Assembly (NCBI RefSeq): GCF_900107255.1
Contig: NZ_FNPH01000001.1
Coordinates: forward strand, 62,001-126,000
Direction of reading: 5' to 3'
Source of the DNA: Micromonospora pattaloongensis
GTDB taxonomy: Bacteria > Actinomycetota > Actinomycetes > Mycobacteriales > Micromonosporaceae
DNA length: 64,000 nucleotides
Made by a program: the position numbers and the translations under genes. Shown one piece after another: positions 114 through 34,736 of the stretch (its first letter is position 1; every line of letters begins with the position of its first letter). The notes below the pieces were generated by a model that saw nothing but the letters and a program-made list of their open reading frames with translations, ran no database searches and was not told the DNA's origin.

Positions 114-128
114 GCCCATGACCGCTGG

Positions 129-3221: not shown

Positions 3222-3235
3222 AATCCTATAGGATT
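3222..3235. promoter_or_regulatory. Palindromic GntR(FCD)-type operator
   Basis: AATCCTATAGGATT is a perfect 14-bp palindrome in the 147-bp gap between the divergent lactonase and GntR genes. FCD-type GntR regulators commonly bind short palindromes of this kind, so it is the probable site for autoregulation and control of lutABC. The assignment is inferred from form and place. Confidence 0.6.
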
Positions 3236-3287
3236 CGTTCCGGACGGCCACTCCCCGGCGAGGCGGCCCGGCGACGGAGGGAGAGCC

Positions 3288-3965
3288 ATGCGACCGGCGC
3301 GCCGGCTGACCCTCACCGACGACGTCTACGAATCGGTCCGGGCGCTGATCATGGATCACGCGGTCGCCCCTGGCGAGCGCGTCAACATCGACGCCCTCGC
3401 CCGCCAACTCCAGGTCTCGCCCACCCCGGTGCGGGAGGCGCTCGCCCGGCTGGAGTCCGACGGTCTGGTCCGCAAGCGGCCGCTCGCCGGCTACACCGCC
3501 GCGCCGCTGCTGACCCGCGCGGAGTTCGAAGAGCTGGTCGAGATGCGGCTGGTGTTGGAGACGGCCGCCGCGCGACGCTGCGCCACCCGCACCGCGGCGC
3601 GCGAAGGCGCGGACGGCGTCGACGTGGCGGCGTTGCGGCGCGAGGCGGACCTACCGGGCCCCACCGCCGACAGCGGGTACGCCGGCATCGCCGCCTTCAC
3701 CGCCCGGGACGCGCGCTTCCACAACCTGCTCGCCGAGTTCTCCGGCAACCGCATGCTGCACGAGGCCGTCGTGCGGCTCCGGCCGCACCTGCACCTGTTC
3801 CGGCTGCACTTCCCGACCACCCACCACGACACCAGCGCGCGCGAGCACCACCGGGTGGTCGACGCGGTCGCGGCCGGCGACCCGGACGGCGCCGACGCCG
3901 CGATGCGGGCCCATCTGCTGGCGGCCCGGGAACGGCACCTGCCGTACTTCACCGAGGAGGGCTGA
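3288..3965 (+). CDS. GntR-family (FCD) transcriptional regulator of the lut operon
   Basis: A 225-residue FadR-type GntR regulator. The winged helix-turn-helix occupies about residues 8-70 (TLTDDVYESVRALI, VSPTPVREALARLESDGLV) and an all-helical FCD ligand-binding domain covers about 80-215. Likely metal/ligand residues are the DxxFH in ARDARFHNLLAE and the His in EHHRVVDAVAAGD. The start ATG has GGAGGGAGAGCC just upstream. The stop is four bases before lutA, so it is the first gene of the lut operon. Lactate-utilisation operons in other bacteria often carry such a regulator (LutR/LldR type) that responds to lactate. The effector here is inferred from context. Confidence 0.9.
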   Translation: MRPARRLTLTDDVYESVRALIMDHAVAPGERVNIDALARQLQVSPTPVREALARLESDGLVRKRPLAGYTAAPLLTRAEFEELVEMRLVLETAAARRCATRTAAREGADGVDVAALRREADLPGPTADSGYAGIAAFTARDARFHNLLAEFSGNRMLHEAVVRLRPHLHLFRLHFPTTHHDTSAREHHRVVDAVAAGDPDGADAAMRAHLLAARERHLPYFTEEG

Positions 3966-3969
3966 CGCG

Positions 3970-4719
3970 ATGCGGATCGCGCTCTTCGTGACCTGCGTCA
4001 ACGACCTGATGTTCCCCCGCACCGGCCAGGCGGTGGTGCGGATCCTGGAGCGGCTCGGGCACCGGGTGGAGTTCCCGGAGGCGCAGAGCTGCTGCGGGCA
4101 GATGCACGCCAACAGCGGCTACCGGGCCGAGGCGCTGCCGCTGCTGCGCGGCTTCGTCGACACGTTCGCCCCGTACGACGCGGTGGTCGCGCCGTCGGGA
4201 TCGTGCGTGGCGATGGTGCGCGAGTCGTACCCCCGGTTGGCCGCCGGCGACGCGGAGCTGTCGGCGGCGGTCGCCGCGCTCGCCCCGCGCACGTACGAGC
4301 TCTCCGAGCTCCTCGTTGACGTGCTCGGCGTGACCGACGTCGGCGCGCACTTCCCGCACCGCGTCACCTACCACCCGACCTGTCACGGGCTGCGGATGCT
4401 GCGGCTCGGCGACCGTCCCCAGCGGCTGCTGCGGACGGTGCGCGGCCTTGAGCTGGTCGAGCTGCCGGGCGGCGAGGAGTGCTGCGGGTTCGGCGGCACG
4501 TTCGCGATGAAGAACGCGGACGTGTCGGCGGCGATGCTGGCCGACAAGTGCGCGGCGATCCGCGGCACCGGGGCCGGCTACGTCGCGGCGGCCGACAACT
4601 CGTGCCTGGCGCACATCGGCGGCGGCCTCTCCCGCGGCGGCGGTGGGGTGAGTGCGCTGCACTACGCGGAGATCCTCGCCGGCCTGGTCGACGGCGGGAA
4701 GACGGACGGCGCGGCATGA
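3970..4719 (+). CDS. lutA: Lactate utilisation protein A, (Fe-S)-binding CCG-domain subunit
   Basis: A 249-residue LutA/YkgE protein built of two cysteine-rich CCG domains (PF02754). Motifs are VTCVNDLMFP near the start, SCCGQMHANSGY at about 38, TYHPTCHGLRML at about 137 and ECCGFGGTFAMKN at about 177. Together these would ligate a non-cubane Fe-S cluster as in heterodisulfide reductase subunits. LutA works with LutB and LutC in cytoplasmic oxidation of L-lactate to pyruvate. Length matches the family. The stop codon overlaps the lutB start (ATGA), which indicates translational coupling. Confidence 0.95.
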   Translation: MRIALFVTCVNDLMFPRTGQAVVRILERLGHRVEFPEAQSCCGQMHANSGYRAEALPLLRGFVDTFAPYDAVVAPSGSCVAMVRESYPRLAAGDAELSAAVAALAPRTYELSELLVDVLGVTDVGAHFPHRVTYHPTCHGLRMLRLGDRPQRLLRTVRGLELVELPGGEECCGFGGTFAMKNADVSAAMLADKCAAIRGTGAGYVAAADNSCLAHIGGGLSRGGGGVSALHYAEILAGLVDGGKTDGAA

Positions 4720-6167
4720 GCGGCACCGGCAACATCGTCGCCCGGCTGCCCTTCCCCACCGCCGCCCGGAACGAGCTGGCCGACGCCCAGCTGCGGGCCA
4801 ACCTGCGCCGCGCCACCCACACCATCCGGGACAAGCGGCAGCGGGTGGTCGCCGAGGTGTCCGACTGGGAGGCGCTTCGGGTCGCGGGCGCCGCCATCAA
4901 GGACGACGTGCTGGCCCGGCTGCCCGAGCTGCTGGAGCAGTTCGAGGCGGCGGCGACCGCGGCCGGCGCGACCGTGCACTGGGCCCGGGACTCCGCCGAG
5001 GCGTGCGCGGTGGTCACCGAGCTGGTCCGGGCGACCGGGTCCACCGAGGTGGTCAAGGTGAAGTCGATGGCCACCCAGGAGATCGGGCTGAACGAGGCCC
5101 TGGCCCGGGCCGGCATCGCCGCCGTCGAGACCGACCTGGCGGAGCTGATCGTGCAGCTCGCCGACGACACCCCGTCGCACATCCTGGTGCCCGCGATCCA
5201 CTACAACCGCGGCCAGATCCGGGACATCTTCGCCCGGCGGATGCCCGGGGTCGACCTCGCGGCCCTCACCGACGAGCCCGCCGCGCTCGCCGAGGCGGCC
5301 CGCCGGCACCTGCGCGCCAAGTTCCTATCCGCGAAGGTGGCGATCTCCGGGGCGAACTTCGCGGTCGCCGAAACCGGCACGCTCGCGGTGGTGGAGTCCG
5401 AGGGGAACGGGCGGATGTGCCTGACGCTGCCCGAGACGCTGATCTCGGTGGTGGGGATCGAGAAGATCGTGCCGACCTTCCGCGACCTGGAGGTCTTCCT
5501 GCAGCTGCTGCCGCGGTCGTCGACCGGCGAGCGGATGAACCCCTACACCTCGCTCTGGACGGGCGTGACGCCCGGCGACGGGCCCCGGACGGTGCACATC
5601 GTCCTGGTCGACAACGGGCGCACGGACACGCTCGCGGATTCCGTGGGTCGGCAGGCGCTGCGCTGCATCCGCTGCTCGGCCTGCCTCAACGTCTGCCCGG
5701 TCTACGAACGCGTCGGCGGCCACGCCTACGGCTCGGTGTACCCCGGCCCGATCGGCGCGATCCTCTCGCCCCAGCTGACCGGTGCCGGCGCCAACCGCAC
5801 CCTGCCGTACGCCTCGACGCTCTGCGGGGCGTGCTTCGACGCCTGCCCGGTGCGGATCAACATTCCCGAGGTCCTCGTCCACCTGCGACAGTCCGGGGTG
5901 GACGCCGAGCGACGCCGCCCGTCGGCGGAACGCACCGCGATGCGGGCGATGTCCTGGGTGATGCGCGATCGCCGCCGGTACGCGGCGGCGCTGCGCGCCG
6001 CCCGGCGCGGATCGGCCCCGCTGCGGCTGGCCGCGGGCAGGCGCGGCGTCGTACGCCGGCTGCCGTGGCCGCTGTCGGCCTGGACGGCCAGCCGGGACGC
6101 CCCGCTGCCGCCGCAGCGGACGTTCCGGGAATGGTGGGCGGCCCGGGAAAGGGACAACACACCGTGA
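4716..6167 (+). CDS. lutB: Lactate utilisation protein B, LUD-domain iron-sulfur subunit
   Basis: A 483-residue LutB/YkgF protein. An N-terminal LUD domain spans about 60-290 (KSMATQEIGLNEAL, SGANFAVAETGTLAVVESEGN). It is followed by a ferredoxin-like double [4Fe-4S] region with CIRCSACLNVCP (Cys 317, 320, 323, 327) and CGACFDACP (Cys 370, 373, 377). A basic, Arg-rich C-terminal tail follows. It carries electrons in the LutABC lactate dehydrogenase complex. The ATG at 4716 is fixed by the ATGA overlap with lutA; the frame stays open upstream, but that part is out-of-frame lutA. Confidence 0.95.
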   Translation: MSGTGNIVARLPFPTAARNELADAQLRANLRRATHTIRDKRQRVVAEVSDWEALRVAGAAIKDDVLARLPELLEQFEAAATAAGATVHWARDSAEACAVVTELVRATGSTEVVKVKSMATQEIGLNEALARAGIAAVETDLAELIVQLADDTPSHILVPAIHYNRGQIRDIFARRMPGVDLAALTDEPAALAEAARRHLRAKFLSAKVAISGANFAVAETGTLAVVESEGNGRMCLTLPETLISVVGIEKIVPTFRDLEVFLQLLPRSSTGERMNPYTSLWTGVTPGDGPRTVHIVLVDNGRTDTLADSVGRQALRCIRCSACLNVCPVYERVGGHAYGSVYPGPIGAILSPQLTGAGANRTLPYASTLCGACFDACPVRINIPEVLVHLRQSGVDAERRRPSAERTAMRAMSWVMRDRRRYAAALRAARRGSAPLRLAAGRRGVVRRLPWPLSAWTASRDAPLPPQRTFREWWAARERDNTP

Positions 6168-13609: not shown

Positions 13610-15400
13610 CTACAGCGGCGGGTACGCGTTCGCCATCAGCTCACGGAACTGCGCCGAGAACCACGCGCCCGAGATGGGGGCGTTGGCCAGCGCGCCCGTC
13701 ATGTTGTTGCCGTTGCGCTCGTTGCCGGTGTACGTCGGGTCGCACATCCGGTCGAAGCCCTTGCCGTCGTTGTTCGGGATCTCGCGGCTGGAACCGTCCG
13801 ACTCGCCCGGAGGCTTGACCCACACGTACGCGTCGATGCCGGACGCCGGCGCCGCCTTCGGCCGCTCGCCCAGGCCGGCCCCGCTCTGGTTGCACCAGTT
13901 TCCGGGGTGGATCCGGCGGTCGATCCGGCCGCCGTTGACGTAGGTGTCCACGTTGGTCGTCGCGCCCGGTCCGGTCGGCCGGGCGGAGCCGCCCCAGCCG
14001 TTGCGGGAGGTGTCGATCAGCATGCCGACGCTGGAGCTGAAGCCGGCCTGGATCAGCCGCTGGCGGAACGCCTGGGCGAACGACAGCTCGTCGACGTAGA
14101 AGTTCCAGTCAATCCACTTCGACTGCCGCACCGACGTGCCGTTCACGTTGTCCGTGATCTTGACGTACGGCTCGACCAGCGCGGAGTAGTTGGCCGTGTT
14201 GGTGATGAAGCCGTGCACGTTGTTCAGGGTGCTGCCCGAGGCGCGGGCGGCCGTGGCCATCATGTCGGCGCTGGGGCCGAAGTTGGTGTCCCAGCCGATC
14301 CAGCCGTGGTGGGCGGCGTCGATGTAGTTGTAGACGTTGGGGATCGCGCCCAGCTTGGCCAGGGCGTACCCGACACCGTCGACGTAACCGCCGTTCGACT
14401 TCATCGTGGCGCACTTGGCGATGTTGGTGTTGGTGACCAGGTTGGGCAGCGAGTCAATCTCGATGATCGCGATGATCCGCAGGTTGCGGTACTTCTGGTC
14501 GCCCATGATCGCCGCGATCGGGTCGATGTACTGGCTCTTGTAGCGCGGCAGCTCGTCGACGCCGAGCTCGCCGTTGGAGGCCAGCGCCGAGCAGTCCCGG
14601 CCGGGCAGGTTGTAGATGACGAACTGGGCGTAGCCGGCGCCCTGCGCCAGCGCGGCGTCCAGGTGGTCACGCAGCCCCATCGGGCCGTTCGACTCGCTGT
14701 CCGGCGTGCCCTCGATGGCGGCGATCCGGTCGAGCCAGACGGCCGTCGGGTTGTTCGAGACGCGGTTGCCGCCGGGCTCCGACTCGGCCTTGGCCTTCCA
14801 CTCCGGGTTGACGTAGCCGCGCACGCCCACGTACGGGTTGTCCACCCGGGTCCCCGACGGCGGGTTGGTGGGCGGGTTCGTCGGCGGGTTCGTCGGCGGG
14901 TTCGTCGGCGGGTTCGTCGGCGGGTTGGTCGGCGGGTTGGTCGGCGGGTTGGTGGGCGTCGTGCCGCCGTTGCAGGTCGTGCCGTTGAGCCGGAACGACG
15001 TCGGGGCGGTGTTGGTGCCCGAGTAGGTGGCCTGGAAGCCGACGCCTGTGCTCGCGTTGGTCGCGAGCGAGCCGTTCCACGACGCGTTCTTCAGCGTCAC
15101 GTGCCGGCCGGACTGGGTGTACGTGCTGCTCCAGGACTGCGTGACGGCCTGGTTGCCGGCGAAGTCCCACTCCAGGGTCCAGCCGCCGCTGATCGGGTCA
15201 CCGAGGTTGGTGATGTTGACGTTGGCGGTGAAACCGTTGGACCACTGGTTGACGGAGTAGTCGACCCTGCAACCGGCCGCGGCGTTGGCCTGGGTTGCCG
15301 CGACGACGACGACCCCGGAGCCGAGCAGCGCGGCGGCGGCCGCGGTCAGCCCGCGACGCCATCGCGCGCCCCCGGCGCCGTGGAGTGAATTCAGGTTCAT
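13610..15400 (-). CDS. Secreted GH6 cellobiohydrolase with N-terminal CBM2
   Basis: A 596-residue exported cellulase. The signal peptide spans about 1-41 (RRGLTAAAAALLGSG...ANA), a CBM2 cellulose-binding module about 44-143 bounded by two Cys (GCRVDYSVNQW...CNGG), an (NPPT)n linker about 148-186 and a GH6 catalytic domain from about 190. The GH6 signature appears as IIEIDSLPNLV; EID in place of EPD is characteristic of the bacterial exo-acting Cel6B group. The catalytic-acid region YNLPGRDCSALASNGEL is present. It would release cellobiose from non-reducing cellulose ends outside the cell. ATG at 15400 has AGGAGA upstream. A CebR-like operator lies 193 bp upstream, implying repression relieved by cello-oligosaccharide. 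Confidence 0.95.
   Translation of the reverse strand: MNLNSLHGAGGARWRRGLTAAAAALLGSGVVVVAATQANAAAGCRVDYSVNQWSNGFTANVNITNLGDPISGGWTLEWDFAGNQAVTQSWSSTYTQSGRHVTLKNASWNGSLATNASTGVGFQATYSGTNTAPTSFRLNGTTCNGGTTPTNPPTNPPTNPPTNPPTNPPTNPPTNPPTNPPSGTRVDNPYVGVRGYVNPEWKAKAESEPGGNRVSNNPTAVWLDRIAAIEGTPDSESNGPMGLRDHLDAALAQGAGYAQFVIYNLPGRDCSALASNGELGVDELPRYKSQYIDPIAAIMGDQKYRNLRIIAIIEIDSLPNLVTNTNIAKCATMKSNGGYVDGVGYALAKLGAIPNVYNYIDAAHHGWIGWDTNFGPSADMMATAARASGSTLNNVHGFITNTANYSALVEPYVKITDNVNGTSVRQSKWIDWNFYVDELSFAQAFRQRLIQAGFSSSVGMLIDTSRNGWGGSARPTGPGATTNVDTYVNGGRIDRRIHPGNWCNQSGAGLGERPKAAPASGIDAYVWVKPPGESDGSSREIPNNDGKGFDRMCDPTYTGNERNGNNMTGALANAPISGAWFSAQFRELMANAYPPL
14860..14955 (-). repeat. Short tandem DNA repeat coding the NPPT linker
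   Basis: About eight near-identical 12-base units (GGCGGGTTSGTC variants) encode the repeated Asn-Pro-Pro-Thr linker between the CBM2 and GH6 domains. It is a flexible spacer and a spot where copy number could change by slippage. It is not a CRISPR array. Confidence 0.85.
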
Positions 15401-23607: not shown

Positions 23608-24177
23608 TCACGGAACGATCGGTAGGAGATCGTCGTCGAGTCCGGTCTGGGGTAGTCCAGCGGCTGCGACGATGGCCTCGACGGCTTCCTCCATCGTGGT
23701 GGGCTCTGGGAGGACGAGTTCGTCGGGCCAGCCGAGGACATCGTGGGTGGCGTACCAGCTGCTCATGTCCTCGGCGGTGAACTCGGTGGCCTGCGGGCGC
23801 GTGAGGTGCCGGCGGAGGGTCTCGGGCAGGGACACGTCGAGGTAGCAGAACAGCGATCGCCCCCGGTGACCGTCACGCAGACCGGTGAGCATGCTGCGGT
23901 AACGGCTGCTGTGCATGATGCCCTCCAGCACCACGTGGTAGCCGTGGTCGAGCGCGAACCGGACGGTCTGCGCAATCAAAGCGGGTGCGGCGCCGCCGGG
24001 CCTGTCCCGCTCGCGCAGCACGATGCGGCGCAGGTAGTCCTGCTCGACCAGGGCGCAGCCCCGGCCGTGGCGACGCCGTAGCTCCCGCGCGATGCTGCTC
24101 TTACCCGAGCCGGAGTTGCCGCGGACGCAGACGAGGATCGTGTCCGGACTGCCAACGGGGATGGGTGCAGCGGGCAC
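23608..24177 (-). CDS. P-loop kinase (AAA_33/zeta-toxin-like)
   Basis: A 189-residue nucleotide-binding protein. The Walker A is GNSGSGKSSIARELRRR (about 20-36), the region LVEQDYLRR supplies the usual acceptor Asp, HVVLEGIMHSSRY follows, and the lid includes LSLPETLRRHLTRPQ-like sequence with FTAEDMSSWY. It resembles small AAA_33 kinases, a group with polynucleotide/uridine-kinase-like and zeta-toxin-like members; the substrate cannot be assigned. A zeta-epsilon toxin pair would need an antitoxin neighbour, and none is recognisable. The GTG start follows GAGGAGG. It is possibly co-transcribed with the small gene at 24241-24417. Confidence 0.8.
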   Translation of the reverse strand: MPAAPIPVGSPDTILVCVRGNSGSGKSSIARELRRRHGRGCALVEQDYLRRIVLRERDRPGGAAPALIAQTVRFALDHGYHVVLEGIMHSSRYRSMLTGLRDGHRGRSLFCYLDVSLPETLRRHLTRPQATEFTAEDMSSWYATHDVLGWPDELVLPEPTTMEEAVEAIVAAAGLPQTGLDDDLLPIVP

Positions 24178-24240
24178 GGTGCCTCCTCGGGGTCAGTCGT
24201 TGCGCCGGCTCCCCTGCCACAGTGATGAGGTCAATGCCGT

Positions 24241-24417
24241 TCACGACGAGGACTCCTCGGTATCGACTGCCGTGGTTGTCGCGATGCGGTACGCGTCGGT
24301 GTGCCGGGCAGGCCAGCCGAGGAACCGGTCGAAAATCTCAGCGGTGCTGCTCGCCTCACTGGGGTTAAGCCGGTGCAGATCGTCGATCGCATCATGCAGG
24401 CAGCCAGCTGCCCACAT
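24241..24417 (-). CDS. Possible small hypothetical protein upstream of the kinase
   Basis: A 58-residue minus-strand frame (MWAAGCLHDAIDDLHRLNPS..., with EIFDRFLGWPARHTDAYRI) has protein-like composition, unlike the competing frames here. It ends 63 bp before the kinase start. A ribosome site is not clear, so it may be the C-terminal remnant of a longer gene. No family is recognised. Confidence 0.4.
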   Translation of the reverse strand: MWAAGCLHDAIDDLHRLNPSEASSTAEIFDRFLGWPARHTDAYRIATTTAVDTEESSS

Positions 24418-26398: not shown

Positions 26399-26643
26399 AT
26401 TCATGAGCAGGCGCTATCTCTGCGATTAGGGGCACCGGGCGGTATCCGGCGTACCGGCCGACTCGTCCGTCGGCCACCAGGCCAACCGGTTATTACATGG
26501 CGGCTGGCCTGCTGTTTCTTCGGGTGCCGCCGGTCGTCATCGGTCATCTTTGGTCGTCCTTCGACGCCCAGTCACGGCCCTTGGCCTTGTCCGACCTCTG
26601 ACGACCTGACGACGGCCTGGGTATTTTTCCGCTGGCCTGAGGC

Positions 26644-26674
26644 TTGCATCTGGTACCTAGGTACGGGCTTACCG
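26644..26674 (+). promoter_or_regulatory. MerR-type promoter with central dyad
   Basis: -35 TTGCAT (26644-26649) and -10 TTACCG (26669-26674) are separated by 19 bp. The perfect palindrome GTACCTAGGTAC (26653-26664) is centred in that spacer. The over-long spacer with a dyad is the hallmark of promoters activated by MerR-family regulators through DNA distortion. Transcription would begin within a few bases of the ATG at 26683, so the message is nearly leaderless. Confidence 0.75.
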
Positions 26675-26682
26675 TCGTGGTT

Positions 26683-27039
26683 ATGAGCGACCGACACGTC
26701 ACGACGGATGACTCCTGGGTGCCCGATGCATGCACCCTGCCGACAGCTGAGCAGCCGCTGCGGCTCGCTGAGTTCGATCAGTTCTTCCGCGATGCGGTCC
26801 GGGGTGCCGACCGGCTGTCGGCACAGCATCTGCGGTTGCACCTCGACGCCGCGCAGCAGGTGGAGGAGACGGCGCGGGATCTGACGGCCCGTGAATCGTC
26901 CTGCTGCTCGTTCTTCGCTTTCGACGTCGCACGGCCTGACCCGGATTCCCTGACGCTGGACGTTCGGGTACCGGCGGCACACGTCGTCGTGCTCGATGCC
27001 CTCGCCGAGCGGGCGAGCTCTGCCCGGGTGCAGAGATGA
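26683..27039 (+). CDS. Hypothetical protein of the MerR-controlled operon (CCSFF motif)
   Basis: A 118-residue soluble protein of unknown function, first gene of the metal-type operon. It has a helical core (FDQFFRDAVRGADRLSAQHLRLHLDAAQQVEETARDLTARE) followed by SSCCSFFAFDV, a paired-Cys motif that could bind a thiophilic metal, then VPAAHVVVLDALAERA. ATG at 26683 is set by the MerR promoter just upstream. The stop overlaps the merR start (ATGA). It resembles short proteins often found next to actinobacterial MerR genes. The role is unproven. Confidence 0.7.
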   Translation: MSDRHVTTDDSWVPDACTLPTAEQPLRLAEFDQFFRDAVRGADRLSAQHLRLHLDAAQQVEETARDLTARESSCCSFFAFDVARPDPDSLTLDVRVPAAHVVVLDALAERASSARVQR

Positions 27040-27485
27040 CCGGATCGGGACTGCGCAGCGGCCAGGTCGCTGAGGCGGCCGGGGTCAACTTGCAGACGCT
27101 GCGCTACTACGAGCGGCGGGGACTGCTCGCCTCCCCGCAGCGGTCGCCGGGCGGGCATCGGCTCTACCCGTCCGACACCGTCACCTTGCTGCGGGTCATC
27201 AAGACCGCGCAACGCCTCGGCTTCACTCTCAACGAGGTCGCCGATCTGCTCGACGCCGGCCGACACCAGCACGGCGGCCGACCCGACAGCGGCCTGCAGG
27301 CACGGGCCAAGGAGAAGCTCGTCGAGGTGGAACAGAGGTTGGCCGACCTCACCGTCATCCGTGACACCCTGCGCGCCGCCATCTCTGCCGGCTGCGACGA
27401 CCTGGTCGCCTGCGCCGGCAGCTCCTGCTGCCCCCTGCCGTTCGCTGAACTCGCCGAAAGGACCAACTGTGCCGACACCTGTTAA
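27036..27485 (+). CDS. MerR-family metal-responsive regulator
   Basis: A 149-residue MerR-type activator. The winged helix is at 6-40 (RSGQVAEAAGVNLQTLRYYERRGLL), with SPGGHRLYPSDTV, the dimerisation helix about 82-115 and a Cys-rich C-terminus (Cys 120, 126, 131, 132, 145, 149). The C-terminal CDDLVACAGSSCC layout resembles thiol metal sensors. The Cys expected near position 82 of mercury-type MerR (with 117 and 126) is absent, since this region reads GRHQHGGR. The metal may therefore not be Hg(II), or the site is built differently. It overlaps both neighbours and most likely controls the promoter at 26644-26674. Confidence 0.85.
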   Translation: MTGSGLRSGQVAEAAGVNLQTLRYYERRGLLASPQRSPGGHRLYPSDTVTLLRVIKTAQRLGFTLNEVADLLDAGRHQHGGRPDSGLQARAKEKLVEVEQRLADLTVIRDTLRAAISAGCDDLVACAGSSCCPLPFAELAERTNCADTC

Positions 27486-27777
27486 CCGGCTGCGCCGCCT
27501 GCTCCCCTCCGGCATGACCGGACTCGCAGGAGCCGCCTGCACCGCCTGCTGCGTCCTGCCACCGCTGCTGGCCGCCGGGGTACTTGGTGGCGCCGGCTGG
27601 GCCGCAGCCAACCGATTCATGCCTGTCGTCGCCGTCGCTCTGGCCGTGCTCGCCGGCCTTTCCTGGTGGTGGGCCAGCAAGCGCCGCCACACGACCGGCT
27701 GCGCCGGCGGCAACTGCTCCTGCGGGCAAGGCGACCAGAAGGAGCGCGAAGTGGTCACGGTACGGTCCGACGCATGA
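27469..27777 (+). CDS. MerT-like small membrane protein
   Basis: A 102-residue protein with two membrane helices (about 12-38 and 47-66). The first contains [15 protein letters not shown], a Cys-pair in a helix as in mercuric transport proteins. The cytoplasmic tail has a second Cys cluster ([10 protein letters not shown]). By analogy it would pass thiophilic metal ions across the membrane. The start is GTG at 27469 with GAAAGG upstream, overlapping the end of the merR gene by 17 bp; the stop overlaps the next start (ATGA). The metal is not determined. Confidence 0.65.
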
Positions 27778-28109
27778 CGGTTGCCCGCTCAATCCTGCTA
27801 TTCCTGCTCGCCGCGCTCGCCGAAATCGGCGGTGCCTGGCTGGTCTGGCAGGGCTGGCGGGAGAACCGCGGGCTGCTCTGGATCGCGGCCGGAGTCATAG
27901 CCCTCGGCTTCTACGGCTTCGTCGCCACCTTCCAACCCGACCCGAACTTCGGCCGCATCCTGGCCGCCTACGGCGGCATCTTCGTCGCCGGCTCCCTCGC
28001 CTGGGGCATGGTCGTCGACAAATTCCGCCCCGACCGTTACGACCTCATCGGCGCAGCCATCTGCCTCGCCGGCGTCGCCGTCATCATGTACGCACCGCGC
28101 GCCAGCTAG
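27774..28109 (+). CDS. YnfA/UPF0060 family membrane protein
   Basis: A 111-residue, four-helix inner-membrane protein of the UPF0060 (YnfA) family, distantly SMR-like. Recognisable motifs are [54 protein letters not shown] and [23 protein letters not shown]. Its ATG overlaps the preceding stop (ATGA), so it is the last gene of the MerR operon. In other actinomycetes YnfA often travels with metal resistance genes; direct transport activity is uncertain. A 244-bp gap follows with nothing recognisable. Confidence 0.9.
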
Positions 28110-28353
28110 GCGCCGCGCCTGGCGGAACGTATCGCCGCGAACCGTTCAGCAGGTTCACGCGGTGCTGCGCGCAATGCCCAGTCAGGCTGTTCGTGAGGAT
28201 CGGTGATAGCGGGTCACGCAGATGCTTCCCTGGTCAGCCCGTCTGCCGTTGTCGGGGGCGTCGGCGTCAGCGGGTGGTACGGCTGTATGGCTGGCTGTAC
28301 AGCCGAAGCTGGCTGGGGCGGCGCATGTCACACCCGGTCGATAGGAAGGACAC

Positions 28354-28923
28354 ATGAACGGGCAGCCGGGCAACCCACTCTGGTATCGGGCGGCACGGGT
28401 TCAGGTTCAGATGTACGACCCGAGCTGGCCCGAGCGCTATGCCGAGGAAGCCGAGCTGCTGACGCGCACACTTGCGGACTCGTTGCTTGCGGTAGAGCAC
28501 GTCGGGAGTACAGCGGTGCCGGGCCTGGCGGCAAAGCCCGTTATCGACATCCTCGCGGCTGTCCGGGACTTCAACGGTTTCCCGGCGCTGGTGGAGCGCC
28601 TACAGGAGATCGGCTACACCTACACGTCTGAGTCCGAGGCAGACGACCCGAGCCGCCGTGTCTTCCGAAAGGGGCCAGGAGACGTCACCCGTCTCCGCTC
28701 GCATCACCTGCATGTCACTCAGCAGGGCAGCCACTACTGGCGTCGTGTGATCGCCTTCCGTGACTACCTTCGCGCGCACCCGGAAGACGCCGCCGCCTAC
28801 GTCAGTCTGAAACGGGGCCTCGCTGCCCGACATGCCGCTGACCCTGGTCGCTACACGAGGGACAAGCGGGACTTCGTGAGGGAGATCGAGCGGAAAGCCG
28901 CTATTTTGCCCCCATCCTCTTGA
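28354..28923 (+). CDS. GrpB/UPF0157 nucleotidyltransferase-fold protein
   Basis: A 189-residue GrpB-domain protein, a branch of the nucleotidyltransferase superfamily. Motifs are VQMYDPSWPERYAEEAELL, VEHVGSTAVPGLAAKPVIDILAAV (the GS and D-x-D region), LRSHHLHVTQQGSHYWRRVIAFRDYLRAHPEDAAAY and LKRGLAARHAADPGRYTRDKRDFV. All family blocks are present. Biological substrates of the family are poorly known. GGAAGGA precedes the ATG. It is monocistronic and part of the accessory zone. Confidence 0.9.
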   Translation: MNGQPGNPLWYRAARVQVQMYDPSWPERYAEEAELLTRTLADSLLAVEHVGSTAVPGLAAKPVIDILAAVRDFNGFPALVERLQEIGYTYTSESEADDPSRRVFRKGPGDVTRLRSHHLHVTQQGSHYWRRVIAFRDYLRAHPEDAAAYVSLKRGLAARHAADPGRYTRDKRDFVREIERKAAILPPSS

Positions 28924-29079
28924 TAGGTGCCAAAGACTGCGGCGCTCGGTCGGGGTCCAGGGTGGCCGTAGGCCATCGGCGTGCCGACGCGCAGCGCCCT
29001 GCCGTCCATAGCGGCGAGGCCCTAGTCTCCGCCGGCCGTCGAACTGGATGAGCTGGTCGCCGTGGCGTAGGTTGCCGAT

Positions 29080-29535
29080 GTGGCGTTGATCGACATCACC
29101 ACGGTGGTCCGGGCGCCGGTGGAACACGTCTTCGACCTCTCCCTGGACGTCGACGCGCACACCGCCTCCATGTCTTCAGCCGGAGAGCAGGCAGTGGATG
29201 GCGTCCGGTCCGGTCGAATGGCCTTTGGCGAGACGGTTACCTGGGCCGCTCGGCACTTCGGTATCCGCTGGCGGATGACCTCCAGGATCAGCGCATACGA
29301 TCGTCCCCACCGGTTCGTCGACGAGCAGGTCGCCGGGCCATTCCGCCGTTGGCACCACGAGCACATCTTCACTTGGGATGAGGCGAGTCAGGCCACGATC
29401 ATGCGTGACGTCATAGACTTCGCCGCCCCATTCGGCGTGCTTGGGTGGCTGGTCACCAAGATCTTCTTGCTGCGGTACATGCACCGGTTGATCGAGGACC
29501 GAAACTCCTACCTTGTCAGGTCCCTCGCCAGCTAA
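29080..29535 (+). CDS. SRPBCC-family protein
   Basis: A 151-residue START/SRPBCC-fold protein (polyketide-cyclase/dehydrase-like). It opens ALIDITTVVRAPVEHVFDLSLDVDAH and continues GRMAFGETVTWAARHFGIRWRMTSRISAYDRPHRFVDEQVAGPFRRWHHEHIF, closing with the long C-terminal helix MHRLIEDRNSYLVRSL. It is likely a ligand-binding protein. The exact role is unknown. The start is GTG. The 294 bp after it (29536-29829) show no credible gene. Confidence 0.82.
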   Translation: MALIDITTVVRAPVEHVFDLSLDVDAHTASMSSAGEQAVDGVRSGRMAFGETVTWAARHFGIRWRMTSRISAYDRPHRFVDEQVAGPFRRWHHEHIFTWDEASQATIMRDVIDFAAPFGVLGWLVTKIFLLRYMHRLIEDRNSYLVRSLAS

Positions 29536-29829
29536 GCCGACTTGCTCTGGCTTCGGACCTTGCACGACGCCGGCTCACGGGTTGACGGAAATAGGAGCGT
29601 CCACCTGCCGGCTGCCGGCCGTGTCGTACTCCACATGACGCGTCACGTCGTGGTTCCTCTTGGAGCGTGACACCCCGGTCCGGCTGTTGGTTACCCGCCG
29701 TGAACGCGGGCGAGCGGACGCGCTGGCGCATCCGCCTCTGCCAATGAGCGGATGCCTAATCTTGATGACCCACTTGCCAAACGATCGGTCGCGGCGGTCA
29801 CACGGTCGCTGTGGGCCGTGTGCGCCAGG

Positions 29830-30381
29830 TCAGTCGCCGCTGTACCCCACGAAGTAGATCGCGTGCGGCACGTCGCCGTCATACCCGATCACGTAGCGGC
29901 CGCGCCATCGTTCAAGGCCAGTGAGCGCACTGTTCTCGATTGCTTCGGCAACCGTGGTCGCGGCCGGTCGCCGTGTACCGAACAGCTCGTCCAGTTCCTC
30001 GACTGGCACCGGTGCCACCATGTGCGGTGCCGAGGTGGCCGAGACCCCGGTCATGTCGATGATCGAGTGGGTGCCGGAGAACGGCTGCGACGCCAGCAGG
30101 GAATCTGGGTCTGTCACCTCAATCTGCGCAGCGCGCCACGCCGCTCGGGACATGCTGTCGTCCGGTTCCCAGCCGTCGTCCCCGAACGCATCGGCAATGC
30201 TCTCTCGAATGGCGGCAAGATCCGATGCGACATAGTCTTCTTCGCTCATCGACCGGGCCTGCCTGTTCGGCTCTTCGCGATAGAACGAGCCCCGCGCGTA
30301 CGCCTCACGACGAGCTTGCTGCAACGCACGACCAAGATCCTGCTGATACGGCACCTGCCAGCTCCACGCCGATGCGCCCAC
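29830..30381 (-). CDS. Hypothetical protein
   Basis: A 183-residue hydrophilic protein with no recognised domain. It starts MGASAWSWQVPYQQDLGRALQQARREAYARGSF, has an acidic middle, and ends with the strand-rich ALTGLERWRGRYVIGYDGDVPHAIYFVGYSGD. Similar proteins with an N-terminal SWQVPY-type opening occur singly in actinomycetes. Composition is less GC-rich than the core genes, in line with the accessory zone. Confidence 0.6.
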   Translation of the reverse strand: MGASAWSWQVPYQQDLGRALQQARREAYARGSFYREEPNRQARSMSEEDYVASDLAAIRESIADAFGDDGWEPDDSMSRAAWRAAQIEVTDPDSLLASQPFSGTHSIIDMTGVSATSAPHMVAPVPVEELDELFGTRRPAATTVAEAIENSALTGLERWRGRYVIGYDGDVPHAIYFVGYSGD

Positions 30382-30566
30382 GCTGTCCCCTTCGTCTTGT
30401 CACCGGGCAGGGAGCGTACTGGTACTGCCGCTCAGCCAACCTGTCATGCCGCTGACTACGCGCCTCTGACGGACCGTCGAATCCCCAGCGTCCAGCCGAG
30501 TAGTAACTCTGTGTAGCAGCGGCAGCCCATCGTGCGGGAACGCGTCACGCGTCACGTGAAGCCGAT

Positions 30567-30788
30567 GTGTCACGCATCAAGTGGAGCCCGACATGCCGGC
30601 ACACCTGCGCGACGCTGCTGCTGGCGGCGGGCGTGTCTCCACGAGTCGTCATGGACATCCTCGGCCACTCGCAGATCGCGGTGACCATGAACATCTACGG
30701 GCATGTCATGCCGGCCATTCAACAAGAGGTCGCAGGACACATGGACGCGGCGCTGGCCGAGCCCGAGACGCGTGACGACGTTGGCTAG
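30567..30788 (+). pseudogene. Tyrosine recombinase (integrase) C-terminal fragment
   Basis: About 65 residues of a phage-type integrase catalytic domain. RHTCATLLLAAGVSPRVVMDILGHSQ carries the Arg-His motif and the LGHS His, and VTMNIYGHVMPAIQQ holds the nucleophilic Tyr. The N-terminal three quarters, including the core DNA-binding and first Arg, are missing; homology stops abruptly just before RHT, so the gene is broken. It ends 88 bp before a partial tRNA-Lys sequence, the normal position of an integrase next to its attachment site. Confidence 0.88.
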
Positions 30789-30876
30789 TGACACCGTTGC
30801 TGTCGCCGTTGTTGTCACTCCCGCCGAAACGACATCCGGGCACCCACCTGTGATAGGTGAACGCCCAGAGGATTGT

Positions 30877-30920
30877 TGGTGCGCCGCCAGGAACTCGAAC
30901 CCGAAACCGCGGATTAAGAG
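30877..30920. other. Partial tRNA-Lys copy A (degenerate attachment-site remnant)
   Basis: 44 bp match the 3' half of the tRNA-Lys(CTT) gene at 34661-34736 (from the CCA end to the anticodon loop), with two substitutions and one deletion. It adjoins the integrase fragment. The rest of the tRNA is absent, so it is not a functional gene. It is best read as an old att site left by an element that integrated at tRNA-Lys. Confidence 0.8.
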
Positions 30921-31135
30921 GACACGCGCACCGCCTTGGCCTGTCGCCACCTCGGAAGCCGTCCCCTGCTGGGTTGGCTCGCTGTATCACGTCGCTCGAA
31001 CAGCACACTGACGCCCGCCAGCGTGAGCCACGCGCATCTGCCCGCTTCGTTCCGATCACCACACCAACGTACGGTGACGATGATCGGGTGTCATGCGGCG
31101 TCGGGTGGCGGTCGTCCACACAATGGCCCGGGAAT

Positions 31136-31174
31136 GATTGACGTGCACAGGGGAATGCCCTATGCACGTCAATC
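31136..31174. terminator. Long hairpin downstream of the small secreted protein
   Basis: A perfect 12-bp stem (31136-31147 with 31163-31174), prolonged by a mismatch and four more pairs, lies 52 bp past the 31226-31609 gene on the minus strand. It may be a terminator although no T run follows. The stretch 30921-31135 between this hairpin and copy A shows no gene I can support. Confidence 0.45.
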
Positions 31175-31225
31175 GAATTGTTCCCGCTACGCCGTTTCTA
31201 TGTAAGGAAACCGGAAGGGATTACC

Positions 31226-31609
31226 TCATCGGCCGGAAATCCATTCTTCGCTCGTGCACTTTTCGTTCGTGCCACCGGTCTGGATGGAACAGACCTGGTA
31301 GCTCGTGATGACGTACGGCCCGACGTTCGCCACACCGCAGCCGCCCGAGGAGCCGTCGGTGTCCCGCAGCGTGTGCTGCCGTCCGTCGTTCGGGTTGCTG
31401 GTGACGTACCGGACGAAGACGCCGCGGTCGTTCGCTGACGTGTCGCACGCGGAAACCGCCTGGTGGCCGCTTTCCACGCGCCCGTATCCGCCGCCGTCCG
31501 GCGGCGACATCTGGTGGGCGGACGCGAACGCGGGCGCGGCGGGCGCGGCCGCGATGAGCGCCGAAAATGCCGCGACGGTGGCCATTCGTTTTGCTGATCG
31601 GGTCTTCAT
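31226..31609 (-). CDS. Small secreted Cys-containing protein
   Basis: A 127-residue exported protein. A Sec signal peptide (MKTRSAKRMATVAAFSALIAAAPAAPAFA, cleavage about 29-31) precedes a mature part of about 95 residues with four Cys (SACDTS, GGCGVAN, YQVCSI, EKCTSEE) that can form two disulfides, and many Gly/Ser/Thr. No family is recognised. ATG at 31609 follows GGGGAG. It lies between tRNA-Lys copies A and B and so is probably cargo of an integrated element. Confidence 0.65.
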   Translation of the reverse strand: MKTRSAKRMATVAAFSALIAAAPAAPAFASAHQMSPPDGGGYGRVESGHQAVSACDTSANDRGVFVRYVTSNPNDGRQHTLRDTDGSSGGCGVANVGPYVITSYQVCSIQTGGTNEKCTSEEWISGR

Positions 31610-31835
31610 GTCTCCCCAGGTGATGAGCACGCGATATGTGGCGACGCTGGCGATAACCGCCGTGCTGCAGCAGTCAAAACCCTAAGCCGTACGGTTCACA
31701 CGAGTCAATCCGGTCACATCTGCGGCCCTTCTTCGCGCCCTCTGCCGTCGTCTTAACCTGCATAAACAATTGGCGTACGACTATCAGAGTGAAACAGGTC
31801 ACATTGACAGTGGTGGCGGCTCCTACTGAGCGTGG

Positions 31836-32330
31836 TCACGGAATGCACTGGTGCCTCACGATGCGTAGACGCATCCGGCGCTGTCGGTGAGGATCCTGTG
31901 CGTCCGCGACGTGCGCTGCGATTCTGAACAGCTTTCCCAGGCCGAGATCGGCGCGCGCGTGCCAACGGTGGATCAACGAGGAGCAGCGGGACGAGCGAGT
32001 TCGCCTACCTGACGACCGTGGGCCGGCGCGGCAGATGGTGTGCGGTCCGGGAGGCGTCGGTTGGGGCTCGGTGCCGGCGTAACCGAGGGCGACCTTGACC
32101 ATGACGAGGAAGCCGAGCGCGGGCACGGCCGCGGCGATCCAGCCGATCGGAGACGGTTCGGTCTCCACGACCTGCGCGGCGAGAGACAGCGTGACCGCGC
32201 ATGCCAGCACACTCGCGGGAAACACCGTCGAGGTGCGGGCGCGTTTGCGGCGGCGCAGCTCCAGGCCGGAGGCGATGGACATCAGTTCGAGGACGACCGT
32301 GCCGGCCCAGGCCAGCCATCCGGGGTCCAA
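31836..32330 (-). pseudogene. DUF2637-like membrane protein fragment truncated at repeat B
   Basis: The first 85 residues of this frame (WLAWAGTVVLELMSIASGLELRRRKR..., VTLSLAAQVVETEPSPIGWIAAAVPALGFLVMVKVALG) look like the C-terminal half of a DUF2637 membrane protein, a family often carried by actinobacterial plasmids and integrative conjugative elements. The N-terminal half is missing: the coding similarity starts exactly where the duplicated tRNA-flank repeat begins (32323). The remaining C-terminal 75 residues are not protein-like. It is probably destroyed by the recombination that created the repeat. Confidence 0.6.
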
Positions 32331-32458
32331 CCGCTCCCGAGCACCCGGCCACCGGCGGGGACACGAAAAAGGCCCCGACCCAGCGTGAAACGCCAGGTCA
32401 GGGCCTTAATTGCTGGTGCGCCGCCAGGGACTCGAACCCCGAACCCGCGGATTAAGAG
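32323..32458. repeat. Direct repeat B: partial tRNA-Lys plus its terminator
   Basis: 136 bp that duplicate 34557-34706: a shared 20-mer start (GGGTCCAACCGCTCCCGAGC), the tRNA terminator hairpin (about 32369-32409), and the 3' half of tRNA-Lys (32413-32458) without a mismatch in the 42-bp tRNA part. A 14-bp length difference and a few substitutions separate the copies. The tRNA 5' half is absent. It is interpreted as an attachment-site duplication from integration at tRNA-Lys. Confidence 0.88.
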
Positions 32459-32621
32459 CCGCGTTGATCGATTTGCTCGTGTCTGTTGTGGTCCCAAGAA
32501 TCCACGCGTCGCTAGATGTCGCAGGTTCTACTGCCCGCGCGTACCGCGCAGTCCATCCGAAGCCGAGTTTCGTCCATCGCGGCCGAGCACCCGTCGAGCG
32601 CCCTTCCGTCGCCGGCTCCAG

Positions 32622-32663
32622 TTGGACATTGATCGATGTTGATGTATTGTGGGAACGCTCCCA
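32622..32663 (+). promoter_or_regulatory. Promoter with CebR-like operator upstream of sugar dehydrogenase
   Basis: -35 TTGGAC (32622-32627), 17-bp spacer, -10 TATTGT (32645-32650), immediately followed by TGGGAACGCTCCCA (32650-32663), the same 14-mer as at 15593-15606. An operator covering the -10/+1 region would block transcription when a CebR-type LacI repressor is bound. The 372-bp gap 32331-32702 otherwise holds repeat B and no gene. Confidence 0.78.
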
Positions 32664-32702
32664 GATTGCGTCCCCACTTCACCTGCTCAAGGAGCTGAAA
32701 AC

Positions 32703-33947
32703 ATGCCGCGACGGGGTTGTCGCCCGGCCCACCTGCTGGCCGGGCTCCTCCTTCTGGCCCTGCCTGTGTTCCTGTTGCCACCGGCCTCGGTGGCCGGCAC
32801 CGCCACGGCCGGCACCTCCCGCACCAGCGCGGTGCCACTCACCGAGCTGACCGTGGTAACCGAACGGGTGGCTTTCGGTCTACAGCGTCCGATCGCGCTC
32901 ACCGGGCTGCCGGACGGCCGGATGCTGATCGCGGAGAAAAACGGCACCGTCCGCGCCTACCACCCCGACACCGGCTTGGCGGCTGCCCCGGTGCTCGACC
33001 TGACCGCCCGGATCGACACGTCGGACAACGAGCGTGGCCTTCTCGGCATCACGCCTGCGCCGAACTTCGCGCGGACCGGGCTTCTCTACGTGGCCTACAC
33101 GAGCCTACCGGCCGGCGCGCTGACCCTGGCGCGAGTGCCCATCGGCGCTCCTGAGCGGGTGCAGGTGCTGCTCACCCAGGAGCACGCCGAGTATGGCAAC
33201 CACAACGGCGGACAGGTGGCGTTCGGCCGCGACGGCTACCTCTACTGGTCCCTCGGCGACGGCGGCCACGCGAACGACCCGTTCAAGGCCGGTCAGAACC
33301 TCGGCACCCTGCTCGGCAAGATCGTGCGGATCGACGTCAACCGCACCTGCGGGGCGAAGCCCTACTGCGTGCCCTCCGACAACCCGTTCGTCCGCACGCG
33401 CGGCGCGCGGCCGGAGATCTGGGTCTACGGACTGCGCAACCCGTGGCGGTTCTCCGTCGACCCGGTCGACGGCTCGCTGTGGATCGGTGACGTCGGCCAG
33501 GGCCTGGTCGAGGAGATCAATCACATCCGCCCGTGGCAGCGGGGGGCGAACCTCGGCTGGTCGTGCCGGGAGGGCACCCCGGTTTTCGACCCAGAGCAAT
33601 GCCGGCCGGGCGTGCGGTACACCGATCCGGTCTTCGAGTACGAACATTTCATGACGGAGAACTGCTCGGTGACCGGCGGCGTTGTGTACCGAGGGTCCGC
33701 CACCCCGGAGGCATGGGGGACCTACATCGCGAGCGACTACTGCTCGACTCTCGCCTTCGCCGTGCGTCCCAAACCCGGGGGCGGCTACGAGACCGCCACG
33801 ATCGGCAACTTCCCGACCCAGCCAACCGCGATCGACGCCGACGTGCACGGCGAGCTGTACGTGCTCAGTGACCTCCCGGGATGGCTGAGCCGGGTGCGGT
33901 TCGAGCGGGTCCAGCCAGCCTCCGGCGGCGGGGCGGCGAACCGCTGA
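32703..33947 (+). CDS. Secreted PQQ-type sugar dehydrogenase (GSDH family)
   Basis: A 414-residue exported six-bladed beta-propeller of the glucose/sorbosone dehydrogenase family (PF07995). The signal peptide spans about 1-33 (HLLAGLLLLALPVFLLPPASVAG). Family motifs are QRPIALTGLPDGRMLIAEKNGTVR, ERGLLGITPAPNFARTGLLYVAYT, YGNHNGGQVAFGRDGYLYWSLGDGG (with the catalytic-base His region), RPEIWVYGLRNPWRFSVDPVDGSLWIGDVGQ and GANLGWSCREG. It would oxidise aldoses outside the cell with pyrroloquinoline quinone and calcium. ATG at 32703 follows AAGGAG. No CBM or cytochrome is fused. It is controlled by the CebR-like operator and is a potential electron source for the AA10 LPMO. Confidence 0.88.
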   Translation: MPRRGCRPAHLLAGLLLLALPVFLLPPASVAGTATAGTSRTSAVPLTELTVVTERVAFGLQRPIALTGLPDGRMLIAEKNGTVRAYHPDTGLAAAPVLDLTARIDTSDNERGLLGITPAPNFARTGLLYVAYTSLPAGALTLARVPIGAPERVQVLLTQEHAEYGNHNGGQVAFGRDGYLYWSLGDGGHANDPFKAGQNLGTLLGKIVRIDVNRTCGAKPYCVPSDNPFVRTRGARPEIWVYGLRNPWRFSVDPVDGSLWIGDVGQGLVEEINHIRPWQRGANLGWSCREGTPVFDPEQCRPGVRYTDPVFEYEHFMTENCSVTGGVVYRGSATPEAWGTYIASDYCSTLAFAVRPKPGGGYETATIGNFPTQPTAIDADVHGELYVLSDLPGWLSRVRFERVQPASGGGAANR

Positions 33948-34019
33948 AATCCGGGCAATCCGTTCGCATCCGCAATACCCCTCGGGACGGCCGCGTCCGG
34001 ACGGCCGTGCCCGGCTTAC

Positions 34020-34150
34020 GGGCTCATATTCGTGTTCGACGGCGGGGTGCTGACGGCGGACCAGATCGCGGCCATTCGGCTGTGCCCGGACGAGTTCGAC
34101 AGCTTTGAGTTCGTCGAGTCGGAGCGCCTGGGCGAGGTGCTGATCCCGGC
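34020..34150 (+). pseudogene. NUDIX hydrolase C-terminal fragment
   Basis: LIFVFDGGVLTADQIAAIRL followed by DEFDSFEFVESERLGEVLIPA matches the C-terminal part of actinobacterial NUDIX hydrolases (after the NUDIX box). The catalytic box itself and everything upstream are missing. It directly precedes another broken gene. Confidence 0.6.
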
Positions 34151-34224
34151 TGGCTCGGCGGGTCACCGCGGTGATTGCCGCGATCGGACCGCGGCGGCGT
34201 CTACTTCAGAAACGGGCCGCGACC

Positions 34225-34530
34225 AGATAGTTGGCCGGACGAGCCGTGTCCGGCATGCCAAGGGTGACGTGCTGTTCTTCGTGGACTCCGACGTCGCGCT
34301 CGACCGGGACGCGGTCGAGCGGGCGGTCGAACATCTGCGGACCGAACCGCAACTCGGCGCGATCCGCGGCGTACCGGGCCGAGCCGACGTTCCCCGACAG
34401 CCTGGTCAAGCGCTACGGCGCCATCCAGCAGTACGTCTGGTTCTGCAAGGTCGAGGGCACCATCCCGGCCTACACTCGACGCTCTTCGCGATGAAGAAGG
34501 AGACGTTTCAAGAGCTGACATCCACCAGCG
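34225..34530 (+). pseudogene. Glycosyltransferase family 2 fragment with two frameshifts
   Basis: HAKGDVLFFVDSDVALDRDA...EPQLGAI in one frame (with the DxD motif DSD) continues as EPTFPDSLVKRYGAIQQYVWFCKVEGTIP in a second frame from about 34376, and returns to the first frame as GLHSTLFAMKKETFQEL from about 34470. Each piece is typical of GT2 enzymes and the order is right. The N-terminal and C-terminal domains are gone, so it is a decayed gene next to the tRNA-Lys repeat C. Confidence 0.75.
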
Positions 34531-34556
34531 CGGCACCCCGTCCAGGACGCCCGAAT

Positions 34557-34706
34557 GGGTCCAACCGCTCCCGAGCGCCCCCCGAGCACCCGGTCCCTTT
34601 GGCAAGGACACGAAAAAGGCCCCGACCCAGCATAAGACGCCAGGTCAGGGCCTTGCTCGGTGGTGCGCCGCCAGGGACTCGAACCCCGAACCCGCGGATT
34701 AAGAGT
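34557..34706. repeat. Direct repeat C: flank, terminator and 3' half of intact tRNA-Lys
   Basis: 150-bp counterpart of repeat B (32323-32458). It includes the tRNA terminator (34613-34653; 12-bp stem AAGGCCCTGACC/GGTCGGGGCCTT on the minus strand followed by T5) and runs into the intact tRNA-Lys gene up to its anticodon loop, the usual limit of attB identity segments. Confidence 0.85.
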
Positions 34707-34736
34707 CCGCTGCTCTGCCAGTTGAGCTAGCGGCGC
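34661..34736 (-). tRNA. tRNA-Lys (anticodon CTT)
   Basis: A complete 76-nt cloverleaf with encoded CCA. Acceptor GCGCCGC/GCGGCGC, anticodon stem GCGGA/TCCGC with loop CTCTTAA (anticodon CTT), T-loop TTCGAGT. It is transcribed leftward into the hairpin at 34613-34653. Its 3' half is repeated at 32413-32458 and, degenerate, at 30877-30920, marking it as an integration target. Confidence 0.96.

Follow-up and report, generated by a model that had tools for sequence, protein, structure and literature searches.

How did a tRNA-Lys(CTT) gene come to be accompanied by two truncated copies of its own 3' half? We investigated this question in a 64-kb stretch of the Micromonospora pattaloongensis genome on contig NZ_FNPH01000001.1 (hereafter the window, whose positions are used as coordinates throughout), which belongs to an assembly of 5.35 Mb in 28 contigs. 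An earlier note on this DNA had proposed serial integration of mobile elements at the tRNA. A common crossover base, an integrase-tRNA-half joint like that of complete elements, element arms at both copies, and relatives with either an empty or an occupied site all agreed with this proposal, and we are highly confident that tRNA-Lys(CTT) carries at its 3' end the decayed remains of a tandem array of tyrosine-integrase elements.

Truncated tRNA-Lys copies and their common end point

The intact tRNA-Lys(CTT), the presumed integration target, was located at 34661-34736 on the minus strand by both ARAGORN and Rfam, as the earlier note had it. Its 3' flank (34558-34660, minus strand) contains an 18-pair terminator hairpin (34616-34654). 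Copy 2 (32414-32458, minus strand) is a displaced tRNA-Lys 3' half that ends in the anticodon loop and is identical to the tRNA part at 45/45 bases; the identity claimed by the earlier note therefore stands, but the copy starts at 32414 and not at 32413, and the similarity continues across the terminator hairpin (88% over 130 bp), reaching 32324 in the alignment to relatives. This aligned flank of copy 2 (32324-32412, minus strand) contains a terminator of its own (32369-32407), and its left edge at 32324 is a deletion joint. Copy 1 (30877-30920, minus strand) is the older displaced half, with the same end point as copy 2 and 93% identity; it differs from the tRNA part by two mismatches and a 1-base gap and is the more degenerate copy that had been described. 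Three copies do lie along the locus, but they are arranged in tandem and are not nested in the strict sense.

The 20-base core CGCCGCCAGGGACTCGAACC, with up to three mismatches, occurred at three sites in the 64 kb, versus 0.04 expected by shuffling. With up to two mismatches, CCGCGGATTAAGAG also occurred at three sites, all exact and located at the tRNA and the two copies (0.39 expected). A profile of 25 relatives' copies and the window's two recovered the three window sites with E values of 7e-17, 7e-17 and 4e-13, the next best match having a value of 0.3. No RNA genes except tRNAs were detected in the window at Rfam gathering scores.

Relatives were sampled in two ways. The named relatives are the best 80 loci selected by the LD-transpeptidase gene beside the tRNA and not by attachment site (att); 79 of them hold tRNA-Lys(CTT), and we take their genera to belong to the Micromonosporaceae (one record is so titled). 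None of the 40 relatives that were retrieved came from the window genome's own genus. The genome-wide searches covered 354 genomes of the family, with at most two candidates scored per genome for queries made of a copy plus its arm (the DNA joined to the truncated end of copy 1 or copy 2), of an arm only or of a glucose/sorbosone dehydrogenase (GSDH) gene, and at most four for a 490-amino-acid integrase; since so few candidates were scored, the genome counts are lower bounds. Several loci carry two labels (L215/L216 = L145, L220 = L185, L224 = L149, L230 = L153, L251 = L156, L105 = L168, L232 = L130 and L233 = L133), and L256 (G311) is the same contig as L134 of M. sicca, so that both count once as evidence. 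A flank like 34558-34660 was present at the tRNA-Lys of 46 of the 79 named relatives; we therefore rejected this block as an element marker, because by itself it marks no element.

Both window copies stop at the anticodon-loop base equivalent to 34705. The Micromonosporaceae loci examined yielded 35 distinct truncated matches, comprising the window's own two and 33 others, which ended at 34705 in 23 cases, at 34706 in four and elsewhere in six (34697, 34699 twice, 34700, 34708 and 34713). Many of these loci were chosen for carrying such matches, so the set gives no prevalence. Among the 80 loci chosen through the LD-transpeptidase, a truncated copy within ~10 kb ended at 34705 in four and at 34699 or 34700 in two; one locus had a weak match to the terminator only, and ten had an integrase C-terminus facing the tRNA within 500 bp, as detected with a home-made hidden Markov model (two of the ten scored low, near 39 bits). 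With 27 of the 33 relatives' copies ending at 34705 or 34706, the claim that the copies end at the anticodon loop, the crossover segment of tyrosine integrases, was upheld. The att copies are direct repeats sharing one crossover point, as in tandem accretion.

The earlier note had called for a comparison of this tRNA locus among relatives, and the comparison revealed both empty and occupied sites, outside the window genome's own genus. The G352 locus (L227) is occupied: the tRNA is followed by a 5.4-kb insert that starts with integrase sequence and by a distal copy with its flank. The collinear locus of Micromonospora sp. U21 (L139) is unoccupied and forms one stretch where G352 has the insert. 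Positions 1-6073 and 6066-9203 of L227 match L139 down to 9764, and 14613-14783, 15025-15092 and 15300-15563 of L227 continue L139 in order. The upstream side of the tRNA, with LD-transpeptidases, tRNA-His and a gene that we take to be oligoribonuclease-like, is common to many relatives; the downstream side varies among genomes, with some genes recurring.

Element relics beside the two copies

Left of copy 1 lies the remnant of element A. The C-terminal part of its integrase gene (30597-30788, plus strand) was identified by PF00589 and by DNA identity, the frame 30567-30785 matching PF00589 with an E value of 4.5e-9, and an integrase alignment located a second piece of the gene (28126-28200, plus strand; amino acids 167-191) 2.4 kb away. 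The integrase fragment reported before the oldest copy is thus real, and its source can be specified as an element that once lay to the left of copy 1. Between the integrase and att, alignment defined a spacer (30789-30876) with a covarying hairpin (30835-30869), in which 4 of the 15 pairs showed changes on both sides among 13 related sequences (0/500 shuffles as high). Across the whole of 30597-30920 the alignment to M. globispora L147 and M. phytophila L145 had no break (83-85% over 325-328 bp), passing from integrase codons through the spacer to the tRNA half; past 30920 the two relatives continue as an intact tRNA and the window diverges. In the integrase-region alignment, 12 of 13 rows (some representing one genome twice) begin at 30586-30598, indicating that the left edge at ~30597 is a deletion joint. 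The 2.4 kb at 28200-30596 is lower in G+C (65%), carries a GrpB-family and a Polyketide_cyc2 gene and replaces the expected ~510 bp of the integrase gene; the frame 29833-30381 had no match in the Pfam scan, which covered 18 frames of the window.

Relatives of element A include G110, whose integrase is 71.5% identical over 397 amino acids, with tRNA-Lys ~90 bp off, with RepSA, FtsK and GntR genes, and with a weak att copy (43 bp, E 0.002) ~16 kb away. G304 carries the integrase, HTH_17, a partial RepSA and three att copies, and M. phytophila has a three-copy array holding two integrase-att ends. Relatives of this integrase belong to the int-xis-RepSA elements, the pSAM2 type of actinomycete integrative and conjugative element (AICE). 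Element A retains a tyrosine integrase adjoining att in a tRNA 3' end (30597-30920), and no Rep or FtsK-type Tra gene of this element was recognised among the 18 frames scanned. Element A is a remnant of the AICE kind and no longer an AICE. At L073-L101, integrase relatives of element A lie beside tRNA-Thr(CGT), tRNA-Arg(TCT) and other tRNAs, and these varied neighbours point to target switching within this integrase family.

The right side of copy 1 is joined to a different sequence, the distal arm of an M. sicca-type element (30921-30985). This arm resembled the M. sicca arm beside a truncated copy (L134) with a z score of 12 (0/200 shuffles). The joint of A-type spacer, tRNA half and copy-1 arm occurs twice in G272: in L252 it follows an integrase fragment sharing 91% identity with the M. 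sicca one, beside an intact tRNA-Lys (83% over 30820-30980), and in L253 it shows 74% over 30723-30980 with no tRNA within the 20 kb examined. M. globispora-type arms scored z < 2 against the copy-1 arm (L226, L228, L102) or fell outside the 12 best (L215, L227). Since M. globispora-type elements carry other arms, we read the joint at copy 1 as two different elements in tandem. A query running from copy 1 to 31230 had matches at E <= 1e-12 in at least 6 of the 354 genomes, the window genome included, and in the other genomes none of them extended beyond 30985.

The other end of this interval is formed by copy 2 and its flank, which abuts a DUF2637 gene fragment (32017-32324, minus strand; amino acids 26-106 of 305, 89%). 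DNA matches to it were found in nine genomes, and every one stops at 32324; PF10935 was matched by the full-length L247 protein and not by the window fragment alone. Because the M. sicca-type arm and the DUF2637-type gene represent different element kinds, the interval between copy 1 and copy 2 probably consists of two elements fused by deletion. The frame 31229-31630, also between the copies, encodes a small secreted-looking protein with no Pfam match.

The DUF2637 fragment belongs to a third element family, Int-DUF2637-Replic_Relax, with an integrase of 490 amino acids. At E <= 1e-150, this integrase type was present in at least 32 of the 354 genomes and in 10 of 44 genera, and the window genome had no match at this threshold. 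The matches were 85-100% identical in 29 of the 32 genomes, including the query itself, and 63% in three; besides the query's genome, 28 of the 32 have an integrase 85-96% identical. G236 and G282 were shown to have Replic_Relax and NUDIX, and the 25 families listed of this element's 29 comprise Replic_Relax, DUF2637, NUDIX, regulators and metabolic genes. Among the matches listed, 15 of the 32 genomes have a tRNA-Lys match that runs into arm sequence 4-36 kb from the integrase on one contig, and in eight of these the integrase lies between the arm-joined match and an intact-type match. The arm-joined copies were taken as truncated, by inspection in six genomes (G001, G003, G236, G245, G282 and G309) and by alignment only in the others. 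In G001, the truncated copy with its arm (C1:5451853-5452149) and the integrase (5486992-5488455) are ~35 kb apart and, by contig coordinates, 4.08 Mb from the intact tRNA-Lys, representing a relocated array or a second site. By their similarity to these elements, the DUF2637 fragment and the NUDIX piece described below are identified as relics of the family.

Copy 2 is likewise joined to an arm, the distal arm of element C (32459-32603), delimited by arm comparison and by the search with copy and arm. It reached z >= 6.0 with 9 of 27 relatives' arms, and copy 2 together with its arm recurs at tRNA-Lys halves in at least eight other genomes (73-78% over 186-208 bp; among the matches listed, G236, G088, G324, G104 twice, G309, G282, G245 and G001). 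The arm-only query L130:5395-5545 was too specific, matching at least 6 of the 354 genomes with the window's own not included, and the combined query performed better. Arm classes were not counted because single linkage merged 19 of 29 arms into one group. In G282, G236 and G309 that element end is followed by the 490-amino-acid-type integrase and DUF2637.

Interval C, between copy 2 and the tRNA, contains a GSDH-family gene with an open frame (32649-33947, plus strand; PF07995). The DNA of this gene is 92.7%, 93.5%, 93.2% and 87.9% identical to that of L112, L181, L185 and L140, whereas the LD-transpeptidase beside the tRNA is only 69-71% identical to those of the same loci; between two Plantactinospora loci the values are 92.7 for GSDH and 85.9 for the LD-transpeptidase. 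This discord suggests horizontal transfer of the GSDH gene, and slow evolution of the gene might also account for its high identity. The palindrome TGGGAACGCTCCCA, which we take to resemble the CebR operator, lies upstream of the gene (32650-32663), with a second window site at 15593, and occurs in 18 of 29 homologous GSDH upstream regions, some of which represent one genome twice. Downstream, a piece containing the C-terminal part of a NUDIX gene (34019-34248, plus strand; amino acids 135-172 of 206, 84%, E 9e-18) is the second relic of the third family; seven homologous DNA matches begin at 34019, and by itself the piece had no match in the Pfam scan. It had been considered a glycosyltransferase fragment, which was rejected because its homologues show the NUDIX C-terminal part, with glycosyltransferase similarity beginning at ~34206-34250. 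A fragment of a family 2 glycosyltransferase follows at 34250-34507 (plus strand; PF00535; 90-91% to L213 and L214). G301 has the same order as interval C, with an arm-like stretch, GSDH, the NUDIX piece, the flank and a displaced tRNA copy.

Every repeat thus adjoins an element end, on the integrase side or at an arm. The segments 30921-32323 and 32459-34557 have att at both ends and, by two integrase queries and in the frames scanned, no recombination genes, as cis-mobilizable elements (CIMEs) do.

Proposed history and rival explanations

In the history that we propose, the attP of each element would have held a tRNA 3' half with a terminator hairpin behind it, and the integrase would have crossed over in the anticodon loop, so that each insertion would have restored a working tRNA and displaced the previous 3' half and element downstream, to the left. 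The first to arrive would have been element A, of int-xis-RepSA type, leaving its integrase remnant, spacer and copy 1 leftmost and oldest. The content between copies 1 and 2 would have come next (the M. sicca-type arm at 30921, the DUF2637 relic, the flank and copy 2), and element C last (the arm at 32459, GSDH, the NUDIX relic, the flank and the present tRNA end). Large deletions, with sharp joints at ~30597, 32324 and 34019, would have taken the integrases and most genes. The sequences directly show the copies, their shared crossover base, the continuity of integrase and att, both arms recurring next to truncated tRNA-Lys halves, and these joints. The positions and the decay of copy 1 lead us to infer the order of arrival, and we take integrases to have made the crossovers. 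The earlier note had counted at least two insertions of different age; several insertions of different age are supported, but the minimum rises to three, and there were probably four. It had also regarded the DNA between the copies as the remaining cargo. Element relics are indeed present, but the intervals are mosaics of such relics, an apparently horizontally shared GSDH gene and deletion joints, and not simply surviving cargo. The array would be immobile on its own today, and copy 2 and the tRNA might still be usable by a helper integrase.

A number of observations weigh against this history. In the spacer hairpin, the count of further pair types was matched by 162/500 shuffles, and 8 of the 15 pairs are invariant. 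The distal copy of element A was detected neither in the window nor in the contig's first 60 kb, to the left of the window, where the profile detected no further att copy left of the integrase at E <= 10. Of 27 relatives' arms, one matched the copy-1 arm strongly and the runner-up reached z 2.4; where the copy-1 arm has matches in G156, G243 and G352, most of the tRNA half is missing. The arm and the genes between copies 1 and 2 differ in element kind, which requires a lost att copy or a hybrid element. Neither of the intervals flanking copy 2 contained an integrase match, with two integrase queries and in the scanned frames, and the left end of G301 has no tRNA copy. (In G156 and G352, the copy-1 arm is accompanied by no more of the tRNA half than its final 11-19 bases, at L254:9103-9181 and L255:9347-9433, perhaps at another site.)

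The GSDH gene raises a further difficulty: it is common in the family, and several genomes have it with no tRNA-Lys copy nearby within 20 kb (among the matches listed). In Plantactinospora endophytica (L112) it lies ~320 bp from tRNA-Lys, and the 10 kb viewed there hold no truncated copy. Only the elements left of copy 2 might then have integrated, with interval C being native DNA and copy 2 the product of rearrangement. We consider this unlikely, since copy 2 continues straight into an arm that recurs at tRNA-Lys halves in other genomes, interval C contains the NUDIX relic of a tRNA-Lys element family, G301 repeats the order of interval C with a displaced tRNA copy, and GSDH is far more similar among these loci than the LD-transpeptidase. 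An integrase-free origin, in which the tRNA region underwent local tandem duplication or homologous recombination, draws on the complete tRNA-Lys(CTT) duplicates in 18 of the 79 named loci, which indicate that the region duplicates by other means too. Plain duplication is refuted by the arms at both copies, and the truncation of many copies at one base and the joining of an integrase to copy 1, as in other elements, make this origin extremely improbable. The pattern that the earlier note had named as contrary to integration, the same copies in all relatives with no mobile genes, did not occur: the copy-1 query matched only the few genomes given above, and relatives carry integrases. The elements could also have been prophages and not AICE-type or other integrative elements, tyrosine integrases with att in a tRNA 3' end being equally typical of phages; we regard this as very improbable, as the relatives of element A have RepSA, FtsK or Xis-like genes and no phage structural family was among the 25 of 29 third-element families listed.

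Serial integration of tyrosine-integrase elements thus remains our reading of the locus. Tentatively, and with slightly less than even confidence, we extend it to a view of tRNA-Lys(CTT) as a Micromonosporaceae-wide hub, on which integrases of M. globispora type, M. sicca type and 490-amino-acid type, at least three lineages in all, would converge at one anticodon-loop base, each with its own terminator. The 490-amino-acid lineage, with DUF2637, Replic_Relax and an integrase kilobases from att, would be an undescribed family of integrative elements, no transfer gene being recognised in the gene families observed, and all three lineages would have left their fossil in the window array. The whole scar was seen in no other genome examined.

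Neighbourhood, known systems and significance

Other features of the neighbourhood were also noted. The 18 named loci mentioned above (L131, L135, L142, L144, L151, L152, L154, L155, L162-L165, L167, L171, L174, L175, L186 and L189) each have two complete tRNA-Lys(CTT) genes, arranged in tandem at a distance of 0.1-7.7 kb; 3'-half integration does not account for these whole-gene duplicates. A block of ~185 bp (24223-24408) with no Rfam match at gathering score recurs downstream of relatives' tRNA-Lys (L130, L133, L140 twice, L143, L149, L183 and others). The region 26641-28099 contains a MerR regulator and a YnfA/UPF0060 gene, the YnfA part being 83.6-85.4% identical to copies that Micromonospora trifolii, alfalfae and saelicesensis likewise have downstream of tRNA-Lys. 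An AAA/zeta-toxin-like P-loop gene (23611-24177) has 14 matches spread over 13 of the 80 named loci.

Integration, accretion and decay at a tRNA gene are a known process, of which the window array is a new case, at a gene that serves as a target in many relatives too. Like pSAM2-type AICEs, the relatives of element A combine the integrase with HTH_17 and RepSA (G304) or with RepSA, FtsK and GntR (G110), whereas the window keeps only integrase pieces and att. The CIME and tandem accretion model for ICESt1-related elements, reportedly that of Pavlovic et al. 2004, is said to involve segments that are bounded by att, lack recombination genes and share one site, as seen here, but beside the window array we found no complete helper element. 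In Streptomyces, AICEs with different integrases accrete at tRNA-Arg and decay (PMC9513070). The array described there resembles ours in having several elements and integrases in one tRNA gene, direct repeats, a conserved remnant and decayed elements, but it involves tRNA-Arg and functional elements, and ours involves tRNA-Lys(CTT) in the Micromonosporaceae and relics only. The Frankia elements Fean5518 and Fean5534 are AICEs in tandem in a tRNA-Lys gene (PMC3218068); they are like the present case in site and arrangement, but they excise, whereas the window has remnants of more than one element family. In the open-licence PMC literature, no title or abstract on this tRNA-Lys site in the Micromonosporaceae was found among the matches listed.

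The locus is a readable record of repeated gene acquisition at a single site, in which old element scars are legible solely from arms and att joints. Relatives have both complete elements and empty sites at this tRNA, so that the crossover base and the element-borne terminators are directly testable.

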